Source: Breoghania corrubedonensis
Lineage (GTDB): Bacteria; Pseudomonadota; Alphaproteobacteria; Rhizobiales; Stappiaceae
Direction: 5' to 3'
NCBI RefSeq assembly: GCF_003053845.1
Contig: NZ_QAYG01000003.1
Span: 1-64,000 of the forward strand
DNA length: 64,000 nt
Positions 12,559 to 27,856 of the stretch are shown here, in pieces. The first letter of the stretch is position 1, and every line of letters starts with the position of its first letter. Made by a program: the position numbers and the translations under genes. The notes beneath the pieces were generated by a model. It saw nothing but the letters and a program-made list of their open reading frames with translations, did not search any database and had not been told where the DNA came from.

Positions 12559-12619
12559 GTCGCGTGCGTCCGGATCCAAGAGATCCGATCGGCACGACCA
12601 TGCGCGACACGATGTGGAC

Positions 12620-12639
12620 GGGCGGGCTTCGGCCCGCCC
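12620..12639 (+). terminator. Rho-independent terminator of mrp
   Basis: Perfect 8 bp GC stem GGGCGGGC/GCCCGCCC with a TTCG tetraloop, followed by TGCCTTTTC, 61 bp after the mrp stop codon. Classic intrinsic terminator form. Confidence 0.85.
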
Positions 12640-12658
12640 TGCCTTTTCACGACAAGCC

Positions 12659-12796
12659 ATGCCCCCGCGCGCGGACGAACAGGACCGGGCCTGGAGTTTC
12701 GCCCGGATCCGGGCCCTGCTTCGCCACACGGATGCGGTTCTTGAAGCCGTGGCGACGGAAAATCCCGCCCCGTTTTCAACTATAGAGAAACGATAG
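12659..12796 (+). CDS. Possible small protein of unknown function
   Basis: A 45-codon open frame, MPPRADEQDRAWSFARIRAL..., starting 20 bp after the mrp terminator. Composition (charged amphipathic helix RIRALLRHTDAVLEAVA) is protein-like, but the ribosome site is weak, no family is recognised and the GC-rich context produces such frames by chance. Listed for completeness. Confidence 0.25.
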   Translation: MPPRADEQDRAWSFARIRALLRHTDAVLEAVATENPAPFSTIEKR

Positions 12797-12960
12797 CCGC
12801 GATTTTCCCTGCGCCTCGGGCGGTGTGCGGTGTGGTCGTCGCGCTCCTGCGCGCTGTTCCCGCCTGCGTACCGTGTCGTTTTGTTTTCTTTTTTTCGAAA
12901 AACCGGCGCAAATGGCAGGAAACGCAGTCACAATCATCGCTGGTATTTTCCTATAAGTCT

Positions 12961-12979
12961 TTGCAATGCAATATATTTT
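12961..12979 (+). promoter_or_regulatory. Candidate regulatory block shared by both formate dehydrogenase modules (copy 1)
   Basis: TTGCAATGCAATATATTTT, 55 bp before the first torD start, matches 16 of 19 positions of the block at 19629-19647 ahead of the second Tat peptide and alpha gene. It contains the inverted repeat TTGCA-A-TGCAA. Both blocks sit in conspicuously AT-rich islands. A common transcription factor site is inferred; no known box was recognised. Confidence 0.4.
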
Positions 12980-13033
12980 CGACTTGCCTCAAGGGAATGC
13001 CCGCGCCTAGAATTGACGCGGGAGAGATTGAAC

Positions 13034-13669
13034 ATGACAGCAACCACCGCGCGAGCGGATGTGGATGGAGCGTCAGGCGCGCTCGCCTTTGCAAGCGAGG
13101 AAGATGCGCTGCGTGCGCGTTTCTATGGGCTGATCGCGAATTTGCTGGCCGCGCCGCCGGATGCGGCGATGCTGGCGGAACTCGCGCATCTCGAAGGCGA
13201 CGAGAGCGATCTCGGCCGCCCGCTTGGCACGCTTGCCGCCGCCGCCCGCGAAACGGTGCCCCAGGCCGTCGCCGGCGAATTCCACGATCTCTTCATCGGA
13301 GTGGGGCGCGGCGAACTGCTGCCCTACGCCTCCTATTACCTGACCGGCTTTCTCAACGAGAAACCGCTCGCCAGGTTGAGAGGCGCGATGCGGGCGCTTG
13401 GCATCGAGCGCGGTCCCTCGGTGAAGGAACCCGAGGATCATATCGCCGCCATCTTCGACATGATGGCCGGTCTGATCTCTGGCCGGTTCGGCCAACCCGC
13501 CGAGCTGGCGACCCAGAAGGCCTTTTTCACCGCCCACCTTGCGGATTGGGGCCCGTATTTTTTCCGCGACCTCGAAAAGGCGTCCGCCGCGCGCTTCTAC
13601 GCGCCGCTCGGGGCGCTCGGGGGCACGTTCATCGCCATCGAGCAGGCCGCTTTCGGCATGGTCGAATAG
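13034..13669 (+). CDS. TorD/DmsD-family molybdoenzyme chaperone 1
   Basis: A 211-residue all-helical cytoplasmic chaperone that binds the Tat signal of a molybdoenzyme and holds it until the cofactor is inserted. Family landmarks are EFHDLFIGVGRGELLPYASYYLTGFLNEKPLA and the EPEDHIAAIFDMMAGLI motif (E-P-x-D-H, the strongest TorD signature). It is the first gene of formate dehydrogenase module 1, 16 bp before the Tat-peptide gene, and its likely client is the alpha subunit at 13981. A paralogue (18861-19535) heads module 2 and shares both motifs but has diverged considerably. Confidence 0.92.
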   Translation: MTATTARADVDGASGALAFASEEDALRARFYGLIANLLAAPPDAAMLAELAHLEGDESDLGRPLGTLAAAARETVPQAVAGEFHDLFIGVGRGELLPYASYYLTGFLNEKPLARLRGAMRALGIERGPSVKEPEDHIAAIFDMMAGLISGRFGQPAELATQKAFFTAHLADWGPYFFRDLEKASAARFYAPLGALGGTFIAIEQAAFGMVE

Positions 13670-13685
13670 ACGGACGGAGGAACGC

Positions 13686-13937
13686 ATGACAGGCAGGATG
13701 GAGCAGGAGGACGCCATGTCCGAGCGAAACACGCGACCGCACGAGAACCGGGACGGCGATGCCGTGACCGACCGCCGCGGCTTCCTCAGGCTCGCGGGCC
13801 TCGGCACGCTGGCTGGTGGAGCGGCTGTCGTCACCGGTGGAGAGACCGTGGCGGGCGAGCCTCTCGAAGAGGGCCGTGCGGGCGGCTACCGGCTCACCGC
13901 ACATGTGCGCCAAGCCTACGACACCGCGCGCTTCTGA
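13686..13937 (+). CDS. Formate dehydrogenase region Tat-target small protein 1 (TIGR02811-like)
   Basis: An 83-residue protein with a twin-arginine signal (TDRRGFLRLAGLGTLAGGAAVV, residues about 28-49) and a short C-terminus YRLTAHVRQAYDTARF. That tail fits the conserved motif Y-[HRK]-x-[TS]-x-H-[IV] of the small Tat-targeted proteins found only beside formate dehydrogenase genes; their function is not established, and a subunit or accessory role is suspected. The start at 13686 has GGAGG five bases upstream, giving about 20 more N-terminal residues than usual; an in-frame ATG lies ten codons on. It sits between torD and the alpha subunit, and its partner copy is at 19932. Confidence 0.85.
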   Translation: MTGRMEQEDAMSERNTRPHENRDGDAVTDRRGFLRLAGLGTLAGGAAVVTGGETVAGEPLEEGRAGGYRLTAHVRQAYDTARF

Positions 13938-13980
13938 CACGGCGCAAACCGGTCGACAAGCCTTTCAGGGAGATTATGCG

Positions 13981-16965
13981 ATGCTCAGGAAGAAGACGAA
14001 CGGCACCGCCGAAAGGGGCCCTCTTTCCGCGGCCCTGCGCGACATGAGCGCGGGCGCCATCGACCGGCGTAGCTTTCTCAAGCGTTCTGGGGTTGCCGCC
14101 GGCGGTATAGCGGCGTTCTCTGGCCTTTCGAGCGGCATGGTGCGCAAGGCCGAGGCGGCGGACTCTTCGAATGTCGATGTGAAGATCCACAAGTCCGTCT
14201 GCACCCATTGCTCCGTTGGCTGCACCGTGCTGGCCGAGGTCCAGGACGGCGTGTGGATCGGCCAGGAGCCGGGCTTCGACAGCCCCTTCAATCTCGGTTC
14301 GCACTGCGCCAAGGGCGCTTCCGTGCGCGAGCATGCCCATGGCGAGCGGCGGCTGAAATATCCGACCAAGCTCGTCAACGGCAAATGGCAGAAGATCTCC
14401 TGGGAACAGGCGATCGAGGAGGTCGGCGACAAGCTTCTCGAGATCCGCGAAAAGTCGGGTCCCGACAGCGTCTACTGGCTGGGCTCGGCCAAGCATTCCA
14501 ACGAGCAGGCCTATCTCGTCAGGAAGTTCGCCGCCTTCTGGGGCACCAACAACGTCGACCACCAGGCGCGCATCTGTCATTCCACCACGGTCGCGGGTGT
14601 TGCCAACACCTGGGGCTACGGCGCGATGACGAATTCCTACAATGACATCCACAATTCGCGCGCGATCTTCGTGATCGGCGGTAACCCGGCCGAGGCCCAC
14701 CCGGTCTCGCTGCTGCATCTGCTGAAGTGCAAGGAACAGAACAACGCGCCGCTGATCGTCTGCGATCCACGCTTCACCCGCACCGCCGCGCACGCGACCG
14801 AATATGTGCGCATGCGGCCCGGCACCGACGTGGCGCTGGTGTGGGGGCTGCTCTGGCACATCTTCGACAATGGCTGGGAGGACAAGGAGTTCATCCGCCA
14901 GCGCGTGTGGGGCATGGACGAGATCCGCACCGAGGTTTCCCGCTGGACGCCCGAGGAAACGGAACGCGTCACCGGCGTGCCCGGCTCGCAGCTCAAGCGC
15001 GTCGCCCGCACGCTCGCCAACAACCGCCCCGGCACCGTGATCTGGTGCATGGGCGGCACCCAGCATACCAACGGCAACAACAACACCCGCGCCTACTGCA
15101 TCCTGCAGTTGGCGCTGGGCAACATGGGGCGTGCCGGCGGCGGCACCAACATCTTCCGCGGCCATGACAACGTTCAGGGCGCCACCGATCTCGGCGTTCT
15201 CGCCGACACGCTGCCCGGCTATTACGGCCTCACCAACGGCTCCTGGGCGCACTGGGCGCGGGTCTGGGACGTGCCGGTCCAGTATTTCCACGACCGCTTC
15301 GCCAAGACCGGTGAAAAGGACAAGGACGGCAAGGATGTCTCGATGATCAACGCGGTCGGCATCCCCGTCTCGCGCTGGTTCGACGGTGTTCTGGAAGCCA
15401 GGGAGAACATCGAGCAGCCCGACAATGTGAAGGGCATGGTGTTCTGGGGCCACGCGCCCAATTCGCAGACGCGGCTTCCCGACATGAAGAAGGCGATGGA
15501 AAAGCTCGACATCATGGTGGTGATCGACCCCTATCCGACCGTCTCCGCCATTTTGTCCGACCGCACCGACGGCGTTTACCTGCTGCCGGCGGCCACGCAA
15601 TTCGAAACCTACGGCTCCGTGACCGCGTCCAACCGTTCGCTGCAATGGCGCGAGAAGGTGGTCGAGCCGCTGTTTGAATCGAAGCCCGACCACGAGATCG
15701 TCCATCTTTTGGCGAAAAAGTTCGGCTTCGCCGACGAGATGTTCAAGCACATCGAGGTCAATGGCGACGAACCCCTGATCGAGGACGTCACCCGCGAGTT
15801 CAACCGCGGCATGTGGACGATCGGCTATACGGGTCAGTCGCCGGAGCGGCTGAAGGCCCACATGGCCAACCAGTACACGTTCGATCGCACGACGTTGAGG
15901 GCGAATGGCGGTCCGTGCGATGGCGATTTCTACGGGCTTCCCTGGCCATCCTGGGGCACGGCGGAGATGAACCATCCCGGCACCGCCAATCTTTATGACA
16001 CCTCGATGCCGGTCGCCGAGGGCGGCCTGTGCTTCCGCGCCCGCTTCGGAGTGGAGCGCGACGGCGACAATCTGCTGGCCGAAGGGTCGTGGCCGACCGG
16101 CTCGGAGATCGAGGACGGCTACCCCGAGTTCACCATGGCGATGCTTATCAAGATGGGCTGGGACAAGGATCTGACCCCCTACGAGCGGCGGATGATCGAA
16201 TGGGTCGCCGGCATGCACGATGCCGAGCCCAAGGCCGAAGAGGTCGGCGAAACCTCGCAGACCGGAGATCTGCCGTCGGACTATGACAAGAAGGTCGGCG
16301 GGGTGAACTGGAAGACGGATCTTTCCGGCGGCATCCAGCGGGTGGCGATCAAGCATGGCTGCGCGCCCTTCGGCAACGCCAAGGCCCGTGCGGTCGTGTG
16401 GACCTTCCCCGATCCCGTGCCGCTCCACCGCGAGCCGCTCTATACCAACCGGCGCGATCTTCTCGACAAGTACGCGACCTACGACGACAAGACCTTCTGG
16501 CGGGTGCCCACGCTCTACAAGTCCATTCAGGAGAAGGACTATTCCGGCGACTTCCCGATCATCCTGACATCGGGCCGTCTTGTGGAATACGAGGGCGGCG
16601 GCGACGAGACGCGGTCGAACCCGTGGCTGGCCGAACTGCAGCAGGACATGTTCTGCGAGATCAATCCGTACGACGCCCACAACCATGGCATCCAGGACGG
16701 CGACATGGTCTGGGTACACGGGCCGGAGGGCGGCAAGGTCAAGGTCATGGCGATGCTGACCGAGCGTGTCGGCAAGGGGGTGGCCTTCATGCCGTTCCAC
16801 TTCGGCGGCTGGTACGAGGGCAAGGACCTGAGGTCGAAATACCCGAGCGGGGCCGACCCCTATGTGCTGGGCGAGTCCAGCAACACGGCCCAGACCTACG
16901 GCTACGATTCCGTCACCCAGATGCAGGAAACCAAAGCCACGCTCTGCCGGATCGAGCGGGCCTGA
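13981..16965 (+). CDS. fdhA: Formate dehydrogenase large (alpha) subunit 1, molybdopterin, Tat-exported, Cys-type
   Basis: A 994-residue catalytic subunit that oxidises formate to CO2 at a bis-molybdopterin guanine dinucleotide Mo or W site. N-terminal Tat signal DRRSFLKRSG (residues 28-37) predicts export to the periplasm. An N-terminal 4Fe-4S cluster is bound by Cys74, Cys77, Cys81 and Cys109. Cys199 in DHQARICHSTTVAG occupies the position of selenocysteine in E. coli FdnG, with the adjacent catalytic His200. GGNPAEAHPVS and the C-terminal molybdopterin-binding domain (about residues 860-994) complete the layout. Continuous with the beta gene (14 bp gap). It aligns without large gaps with the second copy at 20590 but differs throughout. 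FdhD and FdhE, normally needed for maturation, are not in the window. Confidence 0.96.
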   Translation: MLRKKTNGTAERGPLSAALRDMSAGAIDRRSFLKRSGVAAGGIAAFSGLSSGMVRKAEAADSSNVDVKIHKSVCTHCSVGCTVLAEVQDGVWIGQEPGFDSPFNLGSHCAKGASVREHAHGERRLKYPTKLVNGKWQKISWEQAIEEVGDKLLEIREKSGPDSVYWLGSAKHSNEQAYLVRKFAAFWGTNNVDHQARICHSTTVAGVANTWGYGAMTNSYNDIHNSRAIFVIGGNPAEAHPVSLLHLLKCKEQNNAPLIVCDPRFTRTAAHATEYVRMRPGTDVALVWGLLWHIFDNGWEDKEFIRQRVWGMDEIRTEVSRWTPEETERVTGVPGSQLKRVARTLANNRPGTVIWCMGGTQHTNGNNNTRAYCILQLALGNMGRAGGGTNIFRGHDNVQGATDLGVLADTLPGYYGLTNGSWAHWARVWDVPVQYFHDRFAKTGEKDKDGKDVSMINAVGIPVSRWFDGVLEARENIEQPDNVKGMVFWGHAPNSQTRLPDMKKAMEKLDIMVVIDPYPTVSAILSDRTDGVYLLPAATQFETYGSVTASNRSLQWREKVVEPLFESKPDHEIVHLLAKKFGFADEMFKHIEVNGDEPLIEDVTREFNRGMWTIGYTGQSPERLKAHMANQYTFDRTTLRANGGPCDGDFYGLPWPSWGTAEMNHPGTANLYDTSMPVAEGGLCFRARFGVERDGDNLLAEGSWPTGSEIEDGYPEFTMAMLIKMGWDKDLTPYERRMIEWVAGMHDAEPKAEEVGETSQTGDLPSDYDKKVGGVNWKTDLSGGIQRVAIKHGCAPFGNAKARAVVWTFPDPVPLHREPLYTNRRDLLDKYATYDDKTFWRVPTLYKSIQEKDYSGDFPIILTSGRLVEYEGGGDETRSNPWLAELQQDMFCEINPYDAHNHGIQDGDMVWVHGPEGGKVKVMAMLTERVGKGVAFMPFHFGGWYEGKDLRSKYPSGADPYVLGESSNTAQTYGYDSVTQMQETKATLCRIERA

Positions 16966-16978
16966 GGAGGAGCTGACC

Positions 16979-17854
16979 CATGGCACGGATGAAATTCCTG
17001 TGTGACGCCGAACGCTGCATCGAGTGCAACGCCTGTGTGACGGCCTGCAAGAACGAGAACGAGGTACCCTGGGGCATCAACCGGCGTCGCGTGGTGACGA
17101 TCCAGGACGGCAAGCCGGGTGAGCGGTCGATCTCGGTCGCCTGCATGCATTGTTCGGATGCGCCCTGCATGGCGGTGTGCCCGGTGGATTGTTTCTATCA
17201 GACCGAGGAAGGTGTGGTGCTGCACTCCAAGGACCTGTGCATCGGCTGCGGCTACTGCTTCTATGCGTGTCCCTTCGGGGCGCCGCAGTATCCGCAGGCG
17301 GGCAATTTCGGCTCGCGCGGCAAGATGGACAAGTGCACCTTCTGCGGCGGCGGCCCGGAGGCCGACAATTCGGCGGCCGAATTCCAGAAATACGGCCGCA
17401 ACCGTCTGGCGGAGGGCAAGCTGCCGCTGTGCGCGGAGATGTGTTCCACCAAGGCGCTTCTGGCGGGCGACGGCAACGTGGTTTCGGAGATCTACCGCGA
17501 GCGCGTGGTCGCGCGCGGCTTCGGTTCCGGCGCCTGGGGCTGGGGCACGGCCTACGAGAAGAAGGCCGGCACGCTGTAAGGCTTGAAGGCGGGAGCGTCC
17601 GTCTTCCGCCTTGAAGGCTCTCTCCACCGTCATCCCCCGGCGAAGTCCGGGGGATTCATTGGCCTCTCCGGTCCTGTCGCACTCGGTGACGGATTGCCTG
17701 GACCAAGCCGGGCAATGACGAGCGGGAGGTTTGAGGTCGGCACTGACGCCCTCGCGGGCAGGCTTGCGCGGGGCGTTGCGGGGCTCATCCCATACGTCAT
17801 CCTGAGGGAGCCTGAAAAGGCGGTCTCGAAGGATGTGCCGCCTGATGAACGCGG
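16979..17854 (+). repeat. 876 bp direct duplicate, copy 1 (beta gene plus downstream repeats)
   Basis: Bases 16979-17854 equal 23613-24488 at a constant offset of 6634, with a single difference at 17126 (G) versus 23760 (C), a silent change in an Arg codon. The identity begins one base before the beta start codon and continues 275 bp past its stop through non-coding palindromic repeats, then stops abruptly. Neighbouring alpha genes are clearly diverged, so recent gene conversion or recombination is inferred. Confidence 0.95.
16980..17579 (+). CDS. fdh3B: Formate dehydrogenase iron-sulfur (beta) subunit 1, FDH3 type
   Basis: A 199-residue electron-transfer subunit carrying four 4Fe-4S clusters between the alpha subunit and cytochrome b. 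Cysteine groups in order: CIECNACVTACK (residues 13-24), CMHCSDAPCMAVCP, CIGCGYCFYACP, and CTFCGGG paired with CAEMC. There is no C-terminal membrane helix, unlike E. coli FdnH/FdoH, which fits the FDH3-type beta subunit. The encoded protein is identical in every residue to the second copy at 23614. It is translated right after fdhA in module 1. Confidence 0.95.
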   Translation: MARMKFLCDAERCIECNACVTACKNENEVPWGINRRRVVTIQDGKPGERSISVACMHCSDAPCMAVCPVDCFYQTEEGVVLHSKDLCIGCGYCFYACPFGAPQYPQAGNFGSRGKMDKCTFCGGGPEADNSAAEFQKYGRNRLAEGKLPLCAEMCSTKALLAGDGNVVSEIYRERVVARGFGSGAWGWGTAYEKKAGTL

Positions 17855-18076
17855 GCCTGTCCCGAAATCCGCTCGCGTCCCCATATCTCCTGAAAATCAC
17901 CACCCGAAATCACCATCCTTATCGCCCTGAGGCCTTGGCTGCGTGGGGGCGGTCAACCGCGCCTGTACCCAATTGCCCTTGCGGCAACCTGCAAATGACT
18001 GCACACTGTGCTCCGTCTAGGGAGAGCGCGCACGAAAACACGTTAAAAGAGCGCGCCGACGACCGAAGGGAATGCG
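17580..18076. other. Intergenic region with palindromic repeats
   Basis: A 497 bp gap. Its first 275 bp belong to the 876 bp duplicate and hold repeat elements: CCCCCGGcgaagtCCGGGGG at 17635-17654 with an associated GGGCAATGACG, and a GTCATCCTGAGG...TCTCGAAGGATG element near 17791-17836. The remaining 220 bp hold nothing I can support apart from the region before the DUF3306 gene. An open frame through the repeats is not a credible gene. Confidence 0.7.
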
Positions 18077-18868
18077 ATGAGCGTCGAGGGAGAGGGCGTT
18101 CTCTCGCGCTGGTCCCGGCTGAAACGCGGCGAAAAGACCGTTCGTGAGCATGCCGGTGAGACCGAACGCGAGGTTGCGCGAGACGCAGGGAAAGACACCG
18201 GGAGAGACGCCGGAAGAAGCGCCGGGCGAGGTGGTGTGCAGGAGGCTGCGGGCGACGTTACGCCTGCGGACGTGCTCCCGTCATGCGGGATCGAGGTGCA
18301 AGACGCCGGATCTGCCGCCGGGGTGGTGGAAAATGCCGGGTCGGTTCACGATTGCGAGAGCGATGACGATGCGGCGCGCGTGCCGGTCCGCATGCTCGGC
18401 GAAGACGATCTTCCCGCTATCGACAGTTTGACGGCTCGCTCCGATTTCACCGTCTTTCTTCAGCGAAACGTGCCGGCGCATCTGCACAAGCTCGCCATGC
18501 GCAAGCTGTGGCGCTCCGATCCGGTGCTCGCCAATCTCGACGGTCTCAACGACTACGACACCGATTACACGATCAAGGAAGTCTGGGACATAGCGGCCCA
18601 GTCGGCCGACGATCTCGCCCGTGGCGCCAAACGGCTTACCGTCTCCGACTTGCGTGCGAAGGAGACGGAGGCACGCCGCAAGGCCGAATTCGAAAGGCGC
18701 GGCAAGCCGGCCGCCTCCGGCCGCAAGGCTGAAGAGGTGCTCAGCAACACCCCGGATCGCGAACCGCGTGCGATCGCCGATGTTGAACCACACATGGCGG
18801 AAAACGGGCGGCTTTCGCAAATCGAGCGCGAACCCCCGCCGCAAGCCGATGGAGAGGCCGATGGCTGA
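18077..18868 (+). CDS. DUF3306 domain protein, copy a
   Basis: A 263-residue protein of the DUF3306 family, encoded near formate dehydrogenase genes in proteobacteria and of unknown biochemical role. It starts with the short conserved segment VLSRWSRLKRG; after a low-complexity acidic/Arg linker comes the core MLGEDDLPAIDSLTARSDFTVFLQRNVP followed by AMRKLWRSDPVLANLDGLNDYDTDYT (residues about 110-165). The tail is charged. Located between module 1 and the module 2 torD, whose ATG overlaps its stop by 8 bp. A second DUF3306 gene lies at 39229, there paired with DUF3305; this copy has no DUF3305 neighbour. Confidence 0.85.
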   Translation: MSVEGEGVLSRWSRLKRGEKTVREHAGETEREVARDAGKDTGRDAGRSAGRGGVQEAAGDVTPADVLPSCGIEVQDAGSAAGVVENAGSVHDCESDDDAARVPVRMLGEDDLPAIDSLTARSDFTVFLQRNVPAHLHKLAMRKLWRSDPVLANLDGLNDYDTDYTIKEVWDIAAQSADDLARGAKRLTVSDLRAKETEARRKAEFERRGKPAASGRKAEEVLSNTPDREPRAIADVEPHMAENGRLSQIEREPPPQADGEADG

Positions 18869-19535
18869 GAGTGCGCGCAGCGTTCATGTCCGTAATCCAG
18901 GGGCGGGGGCTCTCGCCCTCGAAGCCGACCTGCCGGCGGAGGAGATCGGCCGGGCAGAAAGCTATCGTCTTCTGTCCCTGCTTTTCGCCGGTCCCCTCCC
19001 GGGCGATCTCGTCGCCACGCTGGGAAACGCCGACCCGGACGACACCGCCCTCGGCCGCTCCCTCGCCAGGCTCGGGGAATGTGCGCGCGATGCAGGACGC
19101 TCCGGCATCGCTGCCGACTATTCGATCCTCTTCATCGGCGCGCCATCGCCCCGGCTGATGCCCTACGCCTCCTATTATCGCGACGGCCATCTGTTCGGTC
19201 ACACGCTGGCGGATCTGCGAGCCGATCTCACAGATCTGGGCATCGCGGCTTTTGAAGGGGCGAGCGAGCCGGAGGATCATCTGGCCACGCTGTGCGAGGT
19301 CATGGCCGGACTCATCCTCGGCAGCTTCGGCGAGCGCGCGCCGATCGCTGCACAGAAGAGCTTTTTCGAGCGCTACCTCCTTTCCTGGTGCGATCGGTTT
19401 TTCGACGATCTGGAAGAGGCGGAGGAAGCTGACCGCTTCTACCGCGCAGTGGCCGGCCTGGGGCGCACGTTCTTCAATCTGGAGGCGGAAGGTTTCCGCA
19501 TGGTCGCATCCGGACGCTGGTCAGAACGAAAATAA
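18861..19535 (+). CDS. TorD/DmsD-family molybdoenzyme chaperone 2
   Basis: A 224-residue TorD-family chaperone heading formate dehydrogenase module 2. It retains YSILFIGAPSPRLMPYASYYRDGHLFGH and the EPEDHLATLCEVMAGLI signature. The ATG at 18861 overlaps the DUF3306 stop (ATGGCTGA) and has GGAGAGG just upstream, indicating translational coupling. Sequence divergence from chaperone 1 suggests each serves its own alpha subunit, though cross-talk is possible. A 396 bp AT-rich gap separates it from the next gene, so the alpha gene of module 2 probably has its own promoter. Confidence 0.92.
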   Translation: MAESARSVHVRNPGAGALALEADLPAEEIGRAESYRLLSLLFAGPLPGDLVATLGNADPDDTALGRSLARLGECARDAGRSGIAADYSILFIGAPSPRLMPYASYYRDGHLFGHTLADLRADLTDLGIAAFEGASEPEDHLATLCEVMAGLILGSFGERAPIAAQKSFFERYLLSWCDRFFDDLEEAEEADRFYRAVAGLGRTFFNLEAEGFRMVASGRWSERK

Positions 19536-19931
19536 CATGATAGATTAAACATGCAAAAACATGCGTATTTTTCTCATAAAAGAATAATGTGACGTAAGGG
19601 ACATGAAGTAACATAGATTTTAATATTGTTGCGATGCACAATATTTTTTCTGTCGACTGTGTGATGTGATTTTGATTCGCGAGAGGGCTGGCGGCAACGG
19701 GTGCGTTGTCGTGTTGTTCTGGCAGGGTGGTGCCGAGACGTCCAAGCCGTGTTTCTGGGGCCGGATATTCCGGGGGGCGGAGTGCCGGAGCGTGGGAGCC
19801 GCCGGCAGCCGGGCCTGCTGGGGCGGGGGGTTCGGGAGGGGCGTCGGGACGCTCCGTTTTCGAGGTGGAGGAAGCAGGGCGCTCCCTTGCATCCGTACCG
19901 CCGATCGAGGGCGAGGAGAGGATTTCAGGAT
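19536..19931. promoter_or_regulatory. Control region of formate dehydrogenase module 2
   Basis: A 396 bp gap. Its first ~135 bp (19536-19670) are strikingly AT-rich for this chromosome and contain repeated ACATG words plus the shared block at 19629-19647. The rest is G-rich leader before the Tat-peptide gene. Promoter function is inferred from base composition and position. Confidence 0.55.
19629..19647 (+). promoter_or_regulatory. Candidate regulatory block shared by both formate dehydrogenase modules (copy 2)
   Basis: TTGCGATGCACAATATTTT matches 16 of 19 positions of the block at 12961. Here it overlaps an inverted repeat TATTGT-N8-ACAATA (19624-19643), a spacing usual for LysR-type or similar dimeric regulators. 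Binding protein unknown. Confidence 0.4.
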
Positions 19932-20129
19932 ATGGCTGACCAGCAACGGCGCGAAAGCGTCGACAGACGAAGTTTCCTCAAGTTTGCGACCTTGGGCGGC
20001 GGCGCGGCCGCCGTTGCGTTCGTCGCCGATAGCGGTGCGGCGGCGGCCGAGGCGGATGCTGCCACACCAGCCGGCGGCTACAGCGAAAGCGCGCATATCC
20101 GCGCCTATTACGATTCGGCACGGATGTAG
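19932..20129 (+). CDS. Formate dehydrogenase region Tat-target small protein 2 (TIGR02811-like)
   Basis: A 65-residue protein with Tat signal VDRRSFLKFATLGGGAAAVAFV (residues about 10-31) and the conserved tail GGYSESAHIRAYYDSARM, close to the family motif ending H-[IV]-x-x-[YF]-Y. Its length fits the family (70 residues or fewer). It precedes the module 2 alpha gene by 460 bp. Function not established in the family; export with a bound cofactor or association with the enzyme is suspected from the folded-protein Tat route. Confidence 0.85.
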   Translation: MADQQRRESVDRRSFLKFATLGGGAAAVAFVADSGAAAAEADAATPAGGYSESAHIRAYYDSARM

Positions 20130-20589
20130 CCCGGCCACGCGAAGGGAGAGATGCGGGGTGGACGGATCGGGTCGGGCCGTGGATCGGGACAGGCGGTCCG
20201 GACGCGTCTTCCATTTCCGTGGCGCCTGCCCATTCCGGTAAGTGCCGCCGGTTTTTGAGACAAGGGGCGGCTTCTTGCTGAAGGGGGAGTTTCTCGACCT
20301 GAACAGGGAGCTTTTCGGCGAACGTGCCCCGTTTCTTGATGAACAGATGAACTGACGAACTGACCAGATGGCGCGCCGCGTTTTTCGCGCAGCCACGGCC
20401 CGAGTGGCGGATCCGCCGGTACGAGGGCCAAAACCACGCATTCAGACGGACGCCCTTTTGTTTTCACATCGCGATGGGCGTCCTCGAGTCGATTGGTGTC
20501 CTCAAGTCAAGGTATCCGTGCGGTTCGCTGAAAATTGGCCAGGAGGGGCCGCGAACGCATCCGGAGCCTCAAGCCAAGGGGTGGGAACG
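20130..20589. other. Intergenic region between Tat peptide 2 and fdhA2
   Basis: A 460 bp gap with no supported gene. It has small direct repeats (GATGAACAGATGAACTGACGAACTGAC near 20338-20364 and GTCCTCGAGTCGATTGGTGTCCTCAAGTC near 20480). Unlike module 1, where the peptide and alpha genes are 43 bp apart, this spacing is long. Confidence 0.5.
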
Positions 20590-23500
20590 ATGCTCAGGAA
20601 GAAATCCGAACAAGGCGCAGACCGTGCCGGCCAAGGCAGAAACGGCACGCCGGGCCGCATGACGCGGCTTCTCAGCGATGTGGCGGGCGCCGCCATCGAC
20701 CGGCGCTCGTTCCTCAAGCGTTCAGGCCTTGCGGCGACCGGGCTCGGCCTCGCCGGCCTGCCGTTTTCCCACGTCCGCAAGGCGCAGGCCGCGTCGGAAA
20801 ATTCCTCCGGCGCGGTGGAGATGAAGACCTCGGTCTGCACCTTCTGCGCGGTCGGCTGCACGGTGAAGGCGGAGGTCAAGGGCGGGGTCTGGATCGGCCA
20901 GGAGCCGGCCTTCGACAGCCCGATCAACATCGGCGCCCACTGCGCCAAGGGCGCAGCGATCCGCGACGAAACCATCGGCGAGCGTCGCCTGAAGCAACCG
21001 ATGAAGCTCGTCGACGGCAAGTGGCAGGCGATTTCCTGGGACGACGCCATCAACGAGATCGGCGACGAGATGCTGAAGATCCGTCAGGAGAGCGGCCCCG
21101 ACAGCGTCTACTGGCTGGGCTCGGCCAAGGTTTCCAACGAGCAGGGCTATCTCTACCGCAAGTTCGCGGCCTTCTGGGGATCGAACAACGTCGATCACCA
21201 GGCCCGTATCTGCCATTCCTCCACCGTCGCCGGCGTCGCCAATACCTGGGGCTACGGCGCGATGACCAACTCCTTCAACGACATGCACAATTCGCGGGGC
21301 ATCATTACCTTCGGCGGCAATCCGGCCGAGGCGCACCCGGTCTCCATGATGCATATTCTGCGGGCGAAGGAGCGCAACAACGCGCCCTTCATTGTGGTGG
21401 ACCCGCGCTTCACCCGCACCGCCGCGCACGCGACCGAACATGTTCAGCCGCGCCCGGGCACCGACATTCCGGTGATCTGGGGCATCCTCTGGCACATCTT
21501 CGAAAACGGCTGGGAGGACAAGGAATTCATCCGCGCCCGCGTCTGGGGTCTCGATGACGTGCGCAAGGAAATCGCCAAGTGGACGCCGGAGGAGGTCGAG
21601 CGCGTTTCCGGCGTGCCGGGCTCGCAGTTGCGCCGGGTGGCGCGCACGCTGGCGCAGTCCAAGCCCGTGTGCCTGACCTGGACGCTGGGCATGACCCAGC
21701 ACACGATCGGCAACAACAACACCCGCGCCATGCCGATCCTGCAGCTCGCGCTCGGCAATATCGGCAAGTCGGGCGGCGGCACCAACATCTTCCGCGGCCA
21801 CGACAACGTGCAGGGCTGCACCGACATGGGCGTCCTGTGCGATACACTGCCGGCCTATTACGGGTTGACCGAAGGCGCCTGGAAACACTGGGCACGGGTG
21901 TGGGGCGTCAGCTATGATTATCTCGCCGGCCGCTTCGCCTCCAGGGAACTGATGGAGGCCGCCGGCACGCCGATCTCGCGCTGGTACGAACTGGTCAACA
22001 TGTCGAAGGACGAGATCGACCAACCCGACAACCTGCGTGCCATGGTGTTCTGGGGCCACTCGGTCAATTCGCTGACCCGGCTTCCCGCCCAGCAGGACGC
22101 CTTCACCAAGCTCGATCTGCTTGTAATCGTCGACCCTTACGTGCCGGCCTCCGCCCTGATGGGCGAGCGCAAGAACGGCACCTATCTCTTGCCCGCCGCC
22201 TCTCAGTTCGAGACCTACGGCGCGGTGACGGCGTCGAACCGCTCCATCCAGTGGCGCGAGAAGGTGGTCGAGCCGCTGTTCGAATCCAGGCCCGACCACA
22301 CGATCATGCACCTGTTTGCGAAGAAGTTCGGCTTCGCGGACGAGATGTTCAAGAACATCGCGGTGAATGGCGAGGAGCCGCTGATCGAGGACATCACGCG
22401 CGAGATCAATCGCGGCTTCTGGACCATCGGCTACACCGGCGCCTCGCCGGAGCGTCTGAAGGAGCACATGAAATATGCGCATACCTTCGACAAGACGACG
22501 CTGAGGGCCAATGGCGGCCCGCTCGACGGCGAATATTACGGCCTGCCATGGCCGGTCTGGGGCACGCCGGAAATGAAGCATCCCGGCTCGCCCAACCTCT
22601 ACGACCCCTCAAAGCCGGTGGCCGAGGGCGGTCTGCCCTTCCGCGCGCGCTACGGCGTGAATGCACCTCAGGACTGGGGCGGGGCCAATATACTGGCCGA
22701 GGGCGACGAGGAGGGTGTCTCCTATACTGTCGGCTCGGAAATCCGTGACGGCTATCCCGAATTCACCATGGCGATGCTGATCAAGCTCGGCTGGGACAGG
22801 GATCTGACCTCCTACGAGCGCCGGATGATCGAATGGGTCGCCGGCATGCACGACGCCGAACCCGGCAAGGAGGAGGTCGGCGAGGCGTCCGAACAGGGGG
22901 AGCGGCCGTCAGATTACGATACGAAGGTCGGCGGGGTGAACTGGAAGACGGATCTGTCCGGCGGCATCCAGCGCGTCGCCATCAAGCACGGCTGTGCCCC
23001 CTACGGCAACGCCAAGGCGCGCTGCGTGGTGTGGACGTTCCCGGACCCGATCCCGATCCATCGCGAGCCGCTCTATACGCCGCGGCGCGATCTGGTCGCC
23101 GACTATCCGACCTATCCCGACACGCGCCGTTTCCGCCTGCCGGTCAAGTATGCCTCGATCCAGAACCAGGATCACTCCAGGGAGTTTCCGCTGGTGCTCT
23201 CGTCGGGCTGTCTGGTGGAAATGGAGGGCGGCGGTGCCAAGTCCTTCGCCAATCCGTGGCTTGCCGAGCTCCAGCAGGACATGTTCGCCCAGGTCAATCC
23301 GCGCGACGCCAACAACGCCAACGTACAGAACGGCGACATGATGATGCTGGAGAGCCCGGAAGGCGGTTCGATCAAGGTGATGGCGCGGGTCACGGAGGCG
23401 GTGGCGCCGGGCAACATCTGGATTCCGTACCACTTCTATGGCCGCTTCGAGGGCGAGGACATCGCCGCCAAGCTGCCGCAGGGAACCGGGCCTTATGTCG

Positions 23501-23598
23501 TGGGCGAGTCTGGCAACATCACGCTCACCTACGGCTACGACTCGGTCACCAACATTCAGGAAAACAAGGTTTCGATCTGCCGGATCCGGGCAGCGTAA
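20590..23598 (+). CDS. fdhA: Formate dehydrogenase large (alpha) subunit 2, molybdopterin, Tat-exported, Cys-type
   Basis: A 1002-residue catalytic subunit, paralogous to the one at 13981. Tat signal DRRSFLKRSG at residues 37-46; 4Fe-4S cysteines Cys83, Cys86, Cys90 and Cys118; catalytic Cys208 followed by His in DHQARICHSSTVAG, so selenocysteine is not used. Molybdopterin-binding regions (GGNPAEAHPVSMMH; GGGTNIFRGHDN; C-terminal domain from about residue 870) are intact. It differs from copy 1 in many residues and in length of several loops, for example an insertion around GVNAPQDWGGANILAEG and a missing stretch near RFASRELMEAAG, while both keep an acidic EEVGE region. The identical beta gene follows 15 bp downstream. 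Confidence 0.96.
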   Translation: MLRKKSEQGADRAGQGRNGTPGRMTRLLSDVAGAAIDRRSFLKRSGLAATGLGLAGLPFSHVRKAQAASENSSGAVEMKTSVCTFCAVGCTVKAEVKGGVWIGQEPAFDSPINIGAHCAKGAAIRDETIGERRLKQPMKLVDGKWQAISWDDAINEIGDEMLKIRQESGPDSVYWLGSAKVSNEQGYLYRKFAAFWGSNNVDHQARICHSSTVAGVANTWGYGAMTNSFNDMHNSRGIITFGGNPAEAHPVSMMHILRAKERNNAPFIVVDPRFTRTAAHATEHVQPRPGTDIPVIWGILWHIFENGWEDKEFIRARVWGLDDVRKEIAKWTPEEVERVSGVPGSQLRRVARTLAQSKPVCLTWTLGMTQHTIGNNNTRAMPILQLALGNIGKSGGGTNIFRGHDNVQGCTDMGVLCDTLPAYYGLTEGAWKHWARVWGVSYDYLAGRFASRELMEAAGTPISRWYELVNMSKDEIDQPDNLRAMVFWGHSVNSLTRLPAQQDAFTKLDLLVIVDPYVPASALMGERKNGTYLLPAASQFETYGAVTASNRSIQWREKVVEPLFESRPDHTIMHLFAKKFGFADEMFKNIAVNGEEPLIEDITREINRGFWTIGYTGASPERLKEHMKYAHTFDKTTLRANGGPLDGEYYGLPWPVWGTPEMKHPGSPNLYDPSKPVAEGGLPFRARYGVNAPQDWGGANILAEGDEEGVSYTVGSEIRDGYPEFTMAMLIKLGWDRDLTSYERRMIEWVAGMHDAEPGKEEVGEASEQGERPSDYDTKVGGVNWKTDLSGGIQRVAIKHGCAPYGNAKARCVVWTFPDPIPIHREPLYTPRRDLVADYPTYPDTRRFRLPVKYASIQNQDHSREFPLVLSSGCLVEMEGGGAKSFANPWLAELQQDMFAQVNPRDANNANVQNGDMMMLESPEGGSIKVMARVTEAVAPGNIWIPYHFYGRFEGEDIAAKLPQGTGPYVVGESGNITLTYGYDSVTNIQENKVSICRIRAA

Positions 23599-23612
23599 GG
23601 GGGAGACGAGAT

Positions 23613-24488
23613 CATGGCACGGATGAAATTCCTGTGTGACGCCGAACGCTGCATCGAGTGCAACGCCTGTGTGACGGCCTGCAAGAACGAGAACGAGGTA
23701 CCCTGGGGCATCAACCGGCGTCGCGTGGTGACGATCCAGGACGGCAAGCCGGGTGAGCGCTCGATCTCGGTCGCCTGCATGCATTGTTCGGATGCGCCCT
23801 GCATGGCGGTGTGCCCGGTGGATTGTTTCTATCAGACCGAGGAAGGTGTGGTGCTGCACTCCAAGGACCTGTGCATCGGCTGCGGCTACTGCTTCTATGC
23901 GTGTCCCTTCGGGGCGCCGCAGTATCCGCAGGCGGGCAATTTCGGCTCGCGCGGCAAGATGGACAAGTGCACCTTCTGCGGCGGCGGCCCGGAGGCCGAC
24001 AATTCGGCGGCCGAATTCCAGAAATACGGCCGCAACCGTCTGGCGGAGGGCAAGCTGCCGCTGTGCGCGGAGATGTGTTCCACCAAGGCGCTTCTGGCGG
24101 GCGACGGCAACGTGGTTTCGGAGATCTACCGCGAGCGCGTGGTCGCGCGCGGCTTCGGTTCCGGCGCCTGGGGCTGGGGCACGGCCTACGAGAAGAAGGC
24201 CGGCACGCTGTAAGGCTTGAAGGCGGGAGCGTCCGTCTTCCGCCTTGAAGGCTCTCTCCACCGTCATCCCCCGGCGAAGTCCGGGGGATTCATTGGCCTC
24301 TCCGGTCCTGTCGCACTCGGTGACGGATTGCCTGGACCAAGCCGGGCAATGACGAGCGGGAGGTTTGAGGTCGGCACTGACGCCCTCGCGGGCAGGCTTG
24401 CGCGGGGCGTTGCGGGGCTCATCCCATACGTCATCCTGAGGGAGCCTGAAAAGGCGGTCTCGAAGGATGTGCCGCCTGATGAACGCGG
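23613..24488 (+). repeat. 876 bp direct duplicate, copy 2
   Basis: Second copy of the segment at 16979-17854, differing only at 23760. After 24488 the two loci share nothing obvious: copy 1 leads to DUF3306, copy 2 to a lipoprotein and the gamma subunit. Confidence 0.95.
23614..24213 (+). CDS. fdh3B: Formate dehydrogenase iron-sulfur (beta) subunit 2, FDH3 type
   Basis: A 199-residue four-cluster ferredoxin subunit with protein sequence identical to the copy at 16980 (see that entry for the cysteine groups). It follows the divergent alpha subunit 2, so one invariant beta protein appears to serve two different catalytic subunits. Ribosome site GGGGGAGA upstream of the ATG is specific to this copy, because the duplicate starts at the base before the start codon. 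Confidence 0.95.
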   Translation: MARMKFLCDAERCIECNACVTACKNENEVPWGINRRRVVTIQDGKPGERSISVACMHCSDAPCMAVCPVDCFYQTEEGVVLHSKDLCIGCGYCFYACPFGAPQYPQAGNFGSRGKMDKCTFCGGGPEADNSAAEFQKYGRNRLAEGKLPLCAEMCSTKALLAGDGNVVSEIYRERVVARGFGSGAWGWGTAYEKKAGTL

Positions 24489-24791
24489 TCGAAGAGGACG
24501 AGACGAAACGGGTCTCTGCAATACCCTCCGTCCGCCGTGGTCCGGATGGAGCTTTGGAGCGCGAAGGACCCCGGGCCTGTCTTTTCCTGCGTTTCGTGCG
24601 CCTCGGCCGCAGGGATCGCGCAGGAATGCCATCTTGGAGAGGCGGTGGGCGAACCGGTATACTTCAAGGCAGTGCCGGGATCTTGAACGAAGGCGCGAGA
24701 CCGCGCGGCAGGAGGAGGCCGACGGAGGCCAATCGGAGCCATGGTTTTCGGGCCCACCGGAACATGACGACGACGCGTGAGGGGAGAAACG
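24214..24791. other. Intergenic region with palindromic repeats
   Basis: A 578 bp gap. Bases 24214-24488 are the repeat-bearing end of the 876 bp duplicate; 24489-24791 is unique GC-rich DNA in which I see no credible gene on either strand. Confidence 0.65.
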
Positions 24792-24989
24792 GTGTCGGCT
24801 GGTTTTTCGAACATGTTGAAGGTGCTGGCGCTTGTCGCGCTGGTTGTCGGGCTTGGTTCGTGCCGCGAGCACGAGCAGGGTCGCCCGCTTGTCTATGAGC
24901 AGGGCCAATACGGCGGCAAGAAGGATACGCCGCTGACCGCAGAGCAGGACCGCGCGTTGGAGTTGCGCGGCCGCAAGCAGGATTTCTGA
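24792..24989 (+). CDS. Small predicted lipoprotein in the formate dehydrogenase locus
   Basis: A 65-residue protein with a hydrophobic N-terminal segment LKVLALVALVVGLGSC whose last residues (LGSC) fit a lipobox, followed by a short polar tail ending RGRKQDF. A GTG start at 24792 with GGGGAG upstream is chosen; the internal ATG at 24813 would give a very short signal. It lies 160 bp before the gamma subunit on the same strand. Predicted attachment to the inner or outer membrane in the periplasm suggests an accessory to the exported enzyme, but the function is unknown and the family is not recognised. Confidence 0.6.
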   Translation: MSAGFSNMLKVLALVALVVGLGSCREHEQGRPLVYEQGQYGGKKDTPLTAEQDRALELRGRKQDF

Positions 24990-25148
24990 AAGCCGGATCG
25001 CCGCCGCTCGGGTGAGGCCTGACGGGGTGAGACGTACAGAACAGGCATGACGGGATACGAAAGGCCCGGCCGGTTTGTTGCGACGGGTGTCGCGCAGCGG
25101 CGTTCGGGTCGGTTCACGAGATCGGCGACATCAGAAGGGAGAAGGCTG

Positions 25149-26345
25149 ATGGGGCACGCGTTTGGCAGCGGTCGTCACGGGCGGCGAGAACCCGCGATAC
25201 AGGCCGGCGGGCTGCGTCTGCAGGCGGGCGGCCGGTTCCAGCGGATCGGGCGGGCGTTGCTGCTGACCCTTGCGGTTTTCGGGGCGGCACTGGCGGGCGG
25301 GCTCCTCGCGGGTCCGGCGCAGGCGCAGCGCCAGACCCCGCCGGAACTCCAGCAGAGCCCGACCGGCGGCCATGTGCCGGGCGATGCTCTGGGCACCGCG
25401 TCGGACGCCGATCTGTGGCGCGCGGTACGCGGTGGCGTGTCGGGAACCGTCAACATTCCTGACAAGAAGGCGGCGCTCCTCATTCAGTCGCAGGGCGACA
25501 ACTGGCGGGCCTTTCGCAACGGGCCGCTTTCAACCTACGGCGCGTGGGCGCTGCTCGGCACCGTCATCATCCTGGCGCTGTTCTTTGCGCTGCGCGGGCG
25601 CATCATGATTGAAAAGGGCCCCGCCGGCGTCACCATCACCCGCTTCTCCTGGATCGAGCGCACCGGCCACTGGCTGGTCGGCGTCTCGTTCATCGTGCTG
25701 GCTGTGACCGGCCTCAACCTTCTCTATGGACGGTATGTGCTGAAGCCCGTCATCGGGGCGGATGCCTTCGCGCTGATCACCCACTGGGGCAAGTACGCGC
25801 ACAATTACCTGGCCTTCGCCTTCATCGCCGGGCTGGTGATGATCTTCGTCATGTGGGTCTCTCACAACATTCCCAGCCGCATCGACATCGCCTGGATCCT
25901 GAAGGCCGGCGGGCTGTTTTCGAAGAACGTCCATCCGGATTCGCGCAAGTTCAACGCCGGGCAGAAGATCATCTTCTGGGCCGTCATCGTGGGCGGCGTG
26001 TCGGTGGCGGTGTCGGGGTGGGCGCTGCTGTTTCCTTTCACCACGCACCTGTTTTCGGGCACGTTCGAGGTGGTGAACGCGATCTTCGGCACCAGCCTGC
26101 CGACCAACCTCGCGCCCATTCACGAACAGCAGCTCGCTCAAGGCTGGCATGCCATCCTGGCGCTGCTGCTGACCTGCGTGATCCTGGCCCACATCTATAT
26201 CGGGTCGGTTGGCATGGAAGGCGCGTTCGATGCCATGGGCTCCGGCGAAGTCGATCTCAACTGGGCCAAAGAGCACCACAATCTGTGGGTGGAGGAAGTG
26301 CAGGAGCGCGAAGCCGGCCGGGCGGAGGCGCAGCCGGCGGAGTGA
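25149..26345 (+). CDS. Formate dehydrogenase cytochrome b (gamma) subunit
   Basis: A 398-residue membrane subunit that accepts electrons from the beta subunit through b-type haems and passes them to quinone or another carrier. After a basic N-terminus comes a signal-like helix (ALLLTLAVFGAALAGGLLAG, residues about 36-55, ending AQA), a periplasmic stretch, then five hydrophobic helices. Conserved histidines suited to haem binding occur in SWIERTGHWLVGVSF, THWGKYAHNYLAF and QGWHAILALLLTCVILAHIYIG. The start at 25149 has GGAGAAGG upstream. Only one gamma gene exists for two alpha/beta pairs in this window, so it may serve both. Confidence 0.93.
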   Translation: MGHAFGSGRHGRREPAIQAGGLRLQAGGRFQRIGRALLLTLAVFGAALAGGLLAGPAQAQRQTPPELQQSPTGGHVPGDALGTASDADLWRAVRGGVSGTVNIPDKKAALLIQSQGDNWRAFRNGPLSTYGAWALLGTVIILALFFALRGRIMIEKGPAGVTITRFSWIERTGHWLVGVSFIVLAVTGLNLLYGRYVLKPVIGADAFALITHWGKYAHNYLAFAFIAGLVMIFVMWVSHNIPSRIDIAWILKAGGLFSKNVHPDSRKFNAGQKIIFWAVIVGGVSVAVSGWALLFPFTTHLFSGTFEVVNAIFGTSLPTNLAPIHEQQLAQGWHAILALLLTCVILAHIYIGSVGMEGAFDAMGSGEVDLNWAKEHHNLWVEEVQEREAGRAEAQPAE

Positions 26346-26416: not shown

Positions 26417-27856
26417 ATGGAGCGGTTTGGGTCGCGCGAAGGTGCTGGTCTGCTTCCCCCGGGCGCGTCTGCTCCTTCGCGCGCTCGGTTTCGCCGTGCC
26501 GCCCTTGCCGTGTTTCTGATGCTCGCTCCGGCAGCGGGCAACGCCATGCCGCAGCATTTCAAGGGTCATGGCGGACCGGTGAAATCGGTGGTGCTGTCAA
26601 GGGATGGCACCCGGGCGCTGACCGGTTCGTTCGACTATTCGGCCATCCTGTGGCGGATCGAGGGGGACGAAGCCATCGTCGAAAGGCGCCTGATCGGCCA
26701 CGAAGCGGCGGTCAACGACGTGGCATTCGCCGGGCCGGATCGGGCCGTTTCCGTCTCCGACGACGGCTCGCTGGCCGTCTGGGACCTGCTGACCGGCGGC
26801 TTGCTCGCCCGCTTCACGGGGCATGGGCGCAAGGTGCTCGGTGTTGCTGTTTCGCGCGATGCGCACTATGCGGCTTCCGCCGGCTGGGACCATGCGTCCC
26901 GGCTCTACGATCTTGAAACCTTGAAGGAAATCGCGGTCCTCGAGGGGCATCGCGGCAACGTCAACGCCGTCGATTTCTCGCCCGACGGCACCCGCCTGTT
27001 TACCGCCTCCTATGACGGCACAATCCGCATGTGGTCGGTGCCGGAAGGCCGGCTGATCGCGCAGGTTTACGACAATGGCTGGTCGGTCAACGTCCTCAAG
27101 GCGGTGGGGGCGGACCGTCTCCTGTTTGGCGGTCTCGACGGGACGCTGGGCGTGATCGACGTGGCCGCCGCCGATCTTGCCAAGGTGCTGCCGAGGCATG
27201 CGCGACCCGTGCTGGCGCTGGCCCTTTCGGCCGATGGCAACCGGGCGGCGAGCGGCGACGGCGATGGGCTCATCCGGGTCTTTTCGACAAGCGACTGGGC
27301 GCTTGAGGAGGAATTCGAAAACCCTTACAGCCCGGTCTGGGGGCTGGCGCTTTCGCGTGACGGCAGCGATGCGCTCTATGCCGGGCTCGACGATTTCGTA
27401 TCGCTGTGGCAGGTCGCGCCGCGAAAGCCGTTCGAGCCTCTGGAGACGACCGTGCCGCGACGCTTCCAGGTTGAGGACGAGGGGCGGGGCAGCGACCCGG
27501 GCGCGCTTCAGTTCGCGCGAAAATGCAGTATCTGCCACACGTTGACGCCGGATGACGGCAATCGCGCCGGGCCGACGCTCTATCGGGTCTTCGGCCGAAA
27601 GGCGGGGTCGCTTGCGGGCTATCACTATTCGCCAGCGCTGCAAGGCTCCGATATCGTGTGGAACGAGAAGACCATCGGCCGGCTTTTCGACGACGGTCCG
27701 GATGTGGTGACGCCGGGCTCCAAGATGCCGATGCAGCGCATCCGCAGCGCGGCGGAACGCGATGCGCTGATCGCCTTCCTGAAGACGGCGACGGCGGGTG
27801 GAGACCACCGCTCGAAGGGTGGAACGATCAGGGAAAAGGGGAGGGATCGGGAATGA
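26417..27856 (+). CDS. Secreted WD40 beta-propeller fused to cytochrome c
   Basis: A 479-residue protein in three parts: a signal peptide (FRRAALAVFLMLAPAAGNA, residues about 25-43), seven WD40-type repeats (about 47-333, with landmarks such as GHGGPVKSVVLSRDGTRALT and GHRGNVNAVDFSPDGTRLFT), and a C-terminal class I cytochrome c domain with haem motif CSICH at 370-374 and a likely axial Met in KMPMQRI (about 437-442). It is exported and haem-bearing, located directly after the cytochrome b subunit with the next gene overlapping its stop, so it plausibly receives electrons from the formate dehydrogenase complex or scaffolds it. Seven blades would close a full propeller. The electron-acceptor role is inference. 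Confidence 0.88.
   Translation: MERFGSREGAGLLPPGASAPSRARFRRAALAVFLMLAPAAGNAMPQHFKGHGGPVKSVVLSRDGTRALTGSFDYSAILWRIEGDEAIVERRLIGHEAAVNDVAFAGPDRAVSVSDDGSLAVWDLLTGGLLARFTGHGRKVLGVAVSRDAHYAASAGWDHASRLYDLETLKEIAVLEGHRGNVNAVDFSPDGTRLFTASYDGTIRMWSVPEGRLIAQVYDNGWSVNVLKAVGADRLLFGGLDGTLGVIDVAAADLAKVLPRHARPVLALALSADGNRAASGDGDGLIRVFSTSDWALEEEFENPYSPVWGLALSRDGSDALYAGLDDFVSLWQVAPRKPFEPLETTVPRRFQVEDEGRGSDPGALQFARKCSICHTLTPDDGNRAGPTLYRVFGRKAGSLAGYHYSPALQGSDIVWNEKTIGRLFDDGPDVVTPGSKMPMQRIRSAAERDALIAFLKTATAGGDHRSKGGTIREKGRDRE

Follow-up and report, generated by a model that had tools for sequence, protein, structure and literature searches.

Concerted evolution by gene conversion has been described in prokaryotes, where paralogues, mostly of protein complexes, are recurrently more alike within a genome than orthologues; of the 26 genes in that study, 17 encode proteins of the same complexes or pathways, and the joint conversion of genes that act in one complex or pathway is emphasised (Wang and Chen 2018, PMC6053082). 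The conversion described for mtrA-1/mtrA-2 in methanogens covers part of the two paralogues and leaves the remainder different (Wang et al. 2015, PMC4632066). Homology-facilitated illegitimate recombination is documented for competent bacteria and for Escherichia coli conjugation (PMC3240628). Here these systems are compared with a stretch of 64,000 nucleotides (nt) of Breoghania corrubedonensis (contig NZ_QAYG01000003.1, positions 1 to 64,000; hereafter the window), in which two neighbouring modules of a predicted FDH3-type formate dehydrogenase carry clearly different catalytic (alpha) subunits and an identical relay (beta) subunit. With a probability of roughly 0.7, we interpret the locus as the result of the lateral gain of an alpha-II cassette beside a resident module, the beta of which was supplied or overwritten by homologous recombination with the host beta.

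Two modules with one beta sequence

The two modules share an 876-base-pair (bp) direct repeat (16979-17854 versus 23613-24488, offset 6634), whose sole mismatch (17126/23760) lies at a third codon position of beta (CGG in copy 1, CGC in copy 2) and is silent, as both codons encode Arg. The beta protein of 199 amino acids (aa) is identical in both copies. Because both sister species of the window's genus (genomes G001 and G002) carry CGG, the base of copy 1, the change probably occurred in copy 2. The repeat starts one base before the beta ATG, takes in 275 bp of non-coding DNA after beta, and contains exact stretches of up to 728 bp; on either side of it, identity is at chance level in an ungapped comparison. 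Offset 6634 is the only one at which exact direct 40-mers occur within the window, and no inverted exact 40-mers were found there. Outside the repeat, alpha-1 and alpha-2 share 68.3% of their aa, 72.8% of their nt and 58.6% of their third positions, and the TorD1 and TorD2 proteins are 36.8% identical. Between the two alpha+beta pairs, up to 150 successive codons are identical, compared with at most 28 in 10000 codon-column shuffles. Parts of the non-coding 275 bp recur as dispersed repeats at no fewer than 45 other places in the genome (40 of 121 candidates were scored).

The features of the locus are listed below, where Tat stands for twin-arginine translocation, SH-aLRT for the Shimodaira-Hasegawa-like approximate likelihood ratio test, and G031_b for the second module of a Roseibium genome (G031).

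12830..13669, + strand: torD1, TorD/NarJ-type chaperone of module 1 (PF02613, 107.8 bits; 60% to sister species G002)
13716..13937, + strand: small Tat-signal protein of module 1 (translation with RRGFLRLAG)
13981..16965, + strand: fdh3A-1, resident alpha-I catalytic subunit with Tat signal (80-85% aa identity to the sisters at the same site; with G002 on the alpha tree)
16980..17579, + strand: fdh3B copy 1, FDH3 beta subunit (passes the curated FDH3 model NF038355 with 343.5 bits, cut-off 240)
16979..17854, + strand: copy 1 of the 876-bp direct repeat (one mismatch at offset 6634)
17580..17854, + strand: non-coding remainder of the first repeat copy, containing dispersed repeat elements (at least 47 genome matches, two being these copies)
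17855..18076, + strand: unique sequence marking the left insertion junction of module 2 (17842-18090 has a single genome match; none in the other loci compared)
18077..18868, + strand: DUF3306 gene of module 2 (PF11748, 59.4 bits; 46% to the DUF3306 of the Marivibrio module)
18861..19535, + strand: torD2, chaperone of module 2, start picked by eye (identity of 47% and 46% with the chaperones from the other two alpha-II modules, and of 37% with torD1)
19932..20129, + strand: small Tat-signal protein of module 2 (translation with RRSFLKFAT)
20590..23598, + strand: fdh3A-2, alpha-II catalytic subunit (clade with G031_b and Marivibrio, SH-aLRT 100)
23614..24213, + strand: host-type beta, fdh3B copy 2 (grouped as sister to the first copy with 100/95 and 100/91, within the genus of the window)
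23613..24488, + strand: copy 2 of the 876-bp direct repeat (one mismatch at offset 6634)
24777..24989, + strand: small lipoprotein-like gene, the ancestral downstream neighbour (67% to G002 and 54% to G001, where it lies behind the single beta; no Pfam match)
25047..26345, + strand: fdh gamma, the only cytochrome b gene seen beside both modules (PF01292, 80.1 bits; Marivibrio homologue 65%)

The alpha start codons are likely those at 13981 (alpha-1) and 20590 (alpha-2). A host DUF3305-DUF3306 pair is found at 38640-39951, which brings the DUF3306 genes in the window to two, the other one lying inside module 2.

As judged from models and gene order, the genes are predicted to encode an FDH3-type formate dehydrogenase. 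While beta passes its model, the alphas stay below the cut-off of the best curated model, TIGR01591 (477 and 455 versus 666 bits), and no FDH3-specific alpha model is among the best 25 families shown. The best solved relative is 9vap, with chain A for alpha-1 (1413.8 bits) and chain B for beta (331.7 bits), and the order torD-Tat-alpha-beta with gamma downstream is that of FDH3 operons.

Module 2 is an insertion, because both sister species carry one module in the same place and are collinear around it. An FDH3 beta at the limit used was found in 58 of the 87 genomes of the family, three of which have two betas: that of the window (G000), G031 and G045. G001 and G002 each have one beta and one module at the same site; the collinearity with the window extends to 17579 and resumes at 25284 in G001, and extends to 17575 and resumes at 24779 in G002. 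The 275-bp non-coding tract has no match behind beta in either sister (locus L068 has two short repeat-element matches far downstream). Two dispersed repeat elements lie behind each beta of the window (17580-17854 and 24214-24488), and the left junction of the inserted module is situated about 11 bp past one of them. In G001 the single FDH3 alpha that was found is broken into two reading frames (L067, about 8479-8506), through either gene decay or a sequencing error.

Direct comparison thus bears out what the initial annotation had said of the 876 bp found twice at offset 6634 with one silent difference, of the diverged alphas and chaperones, and of the tract that begins one base before the start codon and includes non-coding repeats, which prove to be dispersed genome-wide. 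Its module contents (torD, Tat, alpha and beta, each twice) are right except that the DUF3306 gene of module 2 was omitted, and its torD1 start at 13034 is in frame within an open reading frame (ORF) that extends from 12830. The idea that an alpha/chaperone pair had specialised from a local duplicate gives way, on the alpha tree and the sister loci, to a separate old type inserted beside the resident module. For the suggested specialisation for molybdenum versus tungsten no support was found, the RICHS stretch being kept in both alphas; the residue after RICHS is changed from T to S in alpha-II.

Separate histories of alpha and beta

Alpha-2 is 78-79% identical to two other alphas, one from Marivibrio halodurans and the second one in G031, and 68% identical to alpha-1. 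In a quick tree without mixture model, alpha-2, G031_b and the Marivibrio alpha form one clade (SH-aLRT 100), which we call alpha-II. Forcing the two window alphas together costs 538 log-likelihood (lnL) units (p of the approximately unbiased test, p-AU, 8e-42), and joining the two alphas of G031 is rejected on this tree as well. Among the chaperones compared, TorD2 is closest to those of the other alpha-II modules. All three alpha-II proteins are changed at 23 otherwise conserved positions, comprising 14 of the 59 conserved columns from 860 on and 9 of the 286 before; the 14 lie in alpha columns 866-988, near the C terminus (alpha-1 query numbering from MLRKK).

On the sequences searched, alpha-II appears to be a rare clade that, besides the window, was seen only in Marivibrio and Roseibium. 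It occurs in two of the 87 family genomes (G000 and G031). Of 385 genomes of the class, 58 have a match at the limit; with two candidates per genome scored, none besides the window was found at 78-79%, and the best other matches reach at most 67% over the full length or 72% over part of it. The best plasmid match is 66% (best 20 of 97 records). Among the 80 loci kept from a contig search, Marivibrio has 78% and the others at most 66%. More carriers may exist, as the G031 module is not among the loci that the contig search listed. The scattered occurrence suggests that alpha-II was gained laterally.

The betas tell a different story. In the beta DNA tree, which was built twice with different rows, the window betas are sisters within their own genus (100/95 in the first tree, 100/91 in the second, larger one) and join G002 with 99/94 and 100/94, respectively. 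The beta of the alpha-II module of G031 groups with G031_a and genome G071 (100/98 in both trees). Forcing the three betas of alpha-II modules together costs 121 lnL units (p-AU 9e-75). This conflict between the alpha and beta trees supports recombination that keeps beta alike while alpha and chaperone differ. Upstream of the beta-2 ATG, the end of alpha resembles the other alpha-II modules, and from the ATG on the sequence is of host type; the switch from foreign to host sequence therefore lies at the beta start codon. The paralogous betas of the window are thus closer to each other than to orthologues while their flanks conflict, as is typical of concerted evolution.

Similar situations are found in both other alpha-II carriers. 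The two betas of Marivibrio share 99.2% identity across 605 bp, a tract that opens 5 bp ahead of the start codon and ends shortly past the stop. The second is an orphan (genome G650, L213, contig C15, reverse complement 9323-9904), beside which no alpha was found and which is perhaps the remains of a resident FDH3 locus. The ORF after it looks, by eye, like the WD40 protein at 26417-27856 of the window. In G031, the beta pair is about 93.3-93.6% and the gamma pair 91.0% identical in nt, and the DNA that lies between the two genes gives no blastn match; alike as separate patches, they fit separate conversion patches better than one copied block. In Marivibrio and G031 the tracts would fit a limit set by pre-existing homology, whereas the window tract runs 275 bp into non-coding DNA.

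Recurrence of beta homogenisation

Beta homogenisation recurs but is no general rule. At least two FDH3 betas or alphas were found in 24 genomes: three of the family, three more of 397 sampled from the order, 14 of 195 of the genus g42, three found by alpha among 385 of the class, and Marivibrio. Alpha and beta were compared in 20 of them. Left out were G464, where one beta had no recoverable alpha next to it; G499, whose two copies are identical; G536, with one retrieved beta close to a contig end that lacked an alpha and a second copy that was not retrieved; and Marivibrio, whose orphan beta has no alpha. The two identical FDH3 modules of G499 (L179 and L180) lie near contig ends and possibly represent one duplicated contig. 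The baseline was the beta third-position identity at like alpha divergence in 9429 between-genome pairs from 138 rows, after removal of the near-identical L179, L135, L113 and L090 and of rows with fewer than 850 alpha or 185 beta codons.

In five genomes, no between-genome pair reaches the within-genome beta value. Beta third positions agree to 99.5% in G000 (alpha 58.6%; 0/2133 pairs), 93.3% in G253 (48.5%; 0/2877), 90.7% in G482 (52.1%; 0/3424), 83.9% in G483 (56.6%; 0/2831) and 84.4% in G031 (60.1%; 0/1572). G493 is borderline (17/3182) and G632 weak (37/3316); the best two of the remaining 13 genomes are G579 (107/3309) and one G614 pair (158/3419). Homogenisation is thus seen in three genera (5 of 20 genomes), in addition to the Marivibrio orphan beta. 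The synonymous divergence (dS) of beta relative to that of alpha is 0.01/0.71 in the window, 0.25/0.68 in G031, 0.09/1.32 in G253, 0.13/1.10 in G482 and 0.24/0.81 in G483, as opposed to 1.37/1.20 in G045 and 1.76/1.12 in G509; between the betas of the window and G001, dS is 0.41.

Homologous recombination follows a RecA-dependent route and has a sequence-identity threshold. Except for the identical pair of G499, every within-genome pair compared shows beta better conserved than alpha, in aa as well as in DNA. Beta DNA identity is 74.8-87.7% in the pairs without homogenisation, and above this range lie G493 (88.8%), G483 (92.7%), G031 (about 93.3-93.6%), G482 (95.7%), G253 (96.9%) and the window (99.8%). 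The higher beta DNA identity of homogenised pairs agrees with such a threshold, which may be why beta in particular was affected. In the g42 pairs, the likeness fades in the last 40-50 bases of beta and not at the stop codon; that of G482 starts 22 bases before the ATG. Since the DNA behind beta is not homogenised to the degree of beta in the four g42 pairs (G253, G482, G483 and G493), matching a shared gamma is hardly the general cause. These four genomes are of the same genus, and their betas share a clade with further sequences; the g42 events may therefore have one origin. The beta of G648 (L190) also lies in the clade that holds both betas of the four genomes; its two fetched alphas are not of the G253_b/G482_a/G483_a/G493_a type, and such a module may move as a unit.

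Possible routes, alternatives and known systems

The resident locus would have been a single FDH3 module with torD1, the Tat protein, alpha-I, beta, the lipoprotein and gamma, beside which a DUF3306-torD2-Tat-alpha-II cassette from another lineage was placed, with host beta joined to it at the beta start codon via homologous recombination. An incoming beta may have been overwritten by gene conversion; alternatively, a crossover in beta together with an illegitimate join on the other side would have duplicated beta and the 275 bp in one step. As the gene with the better conserved DNA, beta would be where recombination mostly takes place. One beta protein and the single gamma probably serve both alphas.

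Several observations weigh against this interpretation. The 275 non-coding bp of the window tract do not fit a conversion limited to homologous genes; with them inside the tract, a single event of insertion and duplication may suit the window better than conversion of a beta already present, and a beta crossover combined with an illegitimate join past the repeat element is no less likely than conversion. Pairwise AU tests on the betas of alpha-II modules are weaker than the three-way one (p 0.007, 0.043 and 0.019). G031_b stands beside G031_a in the first beta tree (81/65), not in the larger second, and since the sister of the G031_b beta differs between the trees, the G031 event can be placed only within the G031+G071 clade. 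The beta of the Marivibrio alpha-II module may be of host origin, which stays a supposition. Moreover, among the genomes searched, none of the alpha-II modules has a beta of matching lineage, so that the overwriting of an incoming beta is something we infer. Recombination that keeps beta invariant, as the initial annotation had proposed, is backed by the tree conflict, the five genomes and the Marivibrio orphan beta, but not as a general process: in 15 of the 20 genomes with at least two comparable modules the betas are no clear outliers, which in part amounts to the counter-evidence named at the outset, relatives whose two betas have diverged as much as the alphas. The rule that the betas of a genome always cluster, which had been put forward for checking, is true in only 2 of 22 genomes of the beta tree and was rejected.

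Among the alternatives, a recent tandem duplication of the whole resident module, after which a foreign cassette replaced torD-Tat-alpha in one copy with no conversion of beta, would account for the identical beta and 275 bp together, and torD2 does go with alpha-II. We nevertheless regard it as unlikely, as the DNA before torD2 (17855-18868) has no match before torD1 (17855-18076 and 12559-12830 were compared) and the beta and gamma of G031 are alike in separate patches, not as one block. It is also rather improbable that module 2 arrived complete from a close relative with an already similar beta, the recombination having happened elsewhere: although beta does not follow alpha in both other alpha-II carriers either, the beta copies differ by 0.2%, compared with 9% to the nearest other species compared (G001), and the non-coding stretch common to both copies, absent behind beta in both sisters, points to this lineage.

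An assembly artefact, in which one beta locus, or one of two diverged loci, was copied by the assembler into both places, could be imagined in a draft of 21 contigs with exact stretches of up to 728 bp that could exceed the read length. A single contig (C3), however, spans both copies with one difference, the insertion site of module 2 is seen from the sister species, and like pairs with more differences exist elsewhere, for example in the single-contig genome G482 and in Marivibrio, so that we consider an artefact very improbable. Purifying selection alone, for which the conserved beta aa sequence in every within-genome pair except that of G499 might speak, was rejected and has a negligible probability: silent sites are alike too (dS between the copies of 0.01, compared with 0.71 for alpha and 0.41 between the window and G001 betas), and the identity continues through 275 non-coding bp.

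Going one step further than lateral gain followed by recombination with the host beta, one may tentatively picture alpha-II as an exchangeable catalytic head. Such a torD-Tat-alpha cassette would move among Alphaproteobacteria and in each recipient be refitted with the local beta (in Roseibium also with the local gamma), through recombination from the beta start codon onward; one host-specific relay would then serve two different heads. This picture would suit all three alpha-II carriers, Marivibrio only through its orphan beta of supposed host origin. With this locus one can ask whether a conserved relay interface is what lets complexes take on foreign catalytic heads, and whether the conversion of some genes of an operon and not of others depends on sequence identity alone. 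Furthermore, natural alpha pairs that presumably work with one beta are useful for the engineering of CO2/formate enzymes.

No report of FDH3 beta homogenisation was found among the titles and abstract openings of the open-licence literature searched, and the word 'formate' does not occur in the text of PMC6053082. Compared with the annotated FDH3 operon on an Alloyangia pacifica plasmid (DUF3305-DUF3306-torD-Tat-alpha-fdh3B-gamma), module 2 matches from DUF3306 to beta and thus resembles the middle of an FDH3 operon; unlike that operon, it lacks both a DUF3305 and a gamma gene within the module and combines a foreign-lineage alpha with a host beta. One homologous and one illegitimate junction, as in homology-facilitated illegitimate recombination (PMC3240628), would yield the direct repeat of the window, where the end product alone is seen: the junctions are located at the limits of the 876-bp repeat, and 17842-18090, with its single genome match, spans the left junction of the inserted module. 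In mtrA-1/mtrA-2, conversion takes place within one gene and is very long-lasting (PMC4632066), whereas here it would act between the genes of an operon and involve a laterally gained partner. Concerted evolution among the subunits of a complex is a known phenomenon, and as in the cases given in PMC6053082, the window betas are more alike within the genome than orthologues and the phenomenon is recurrent; unlike there, beta only (beta and gamma in one genome) is homogenised and alpha is not, so that in several lineages a single relay subunit is made alike next to a catalytic subunit and chaperone that remain foreign.

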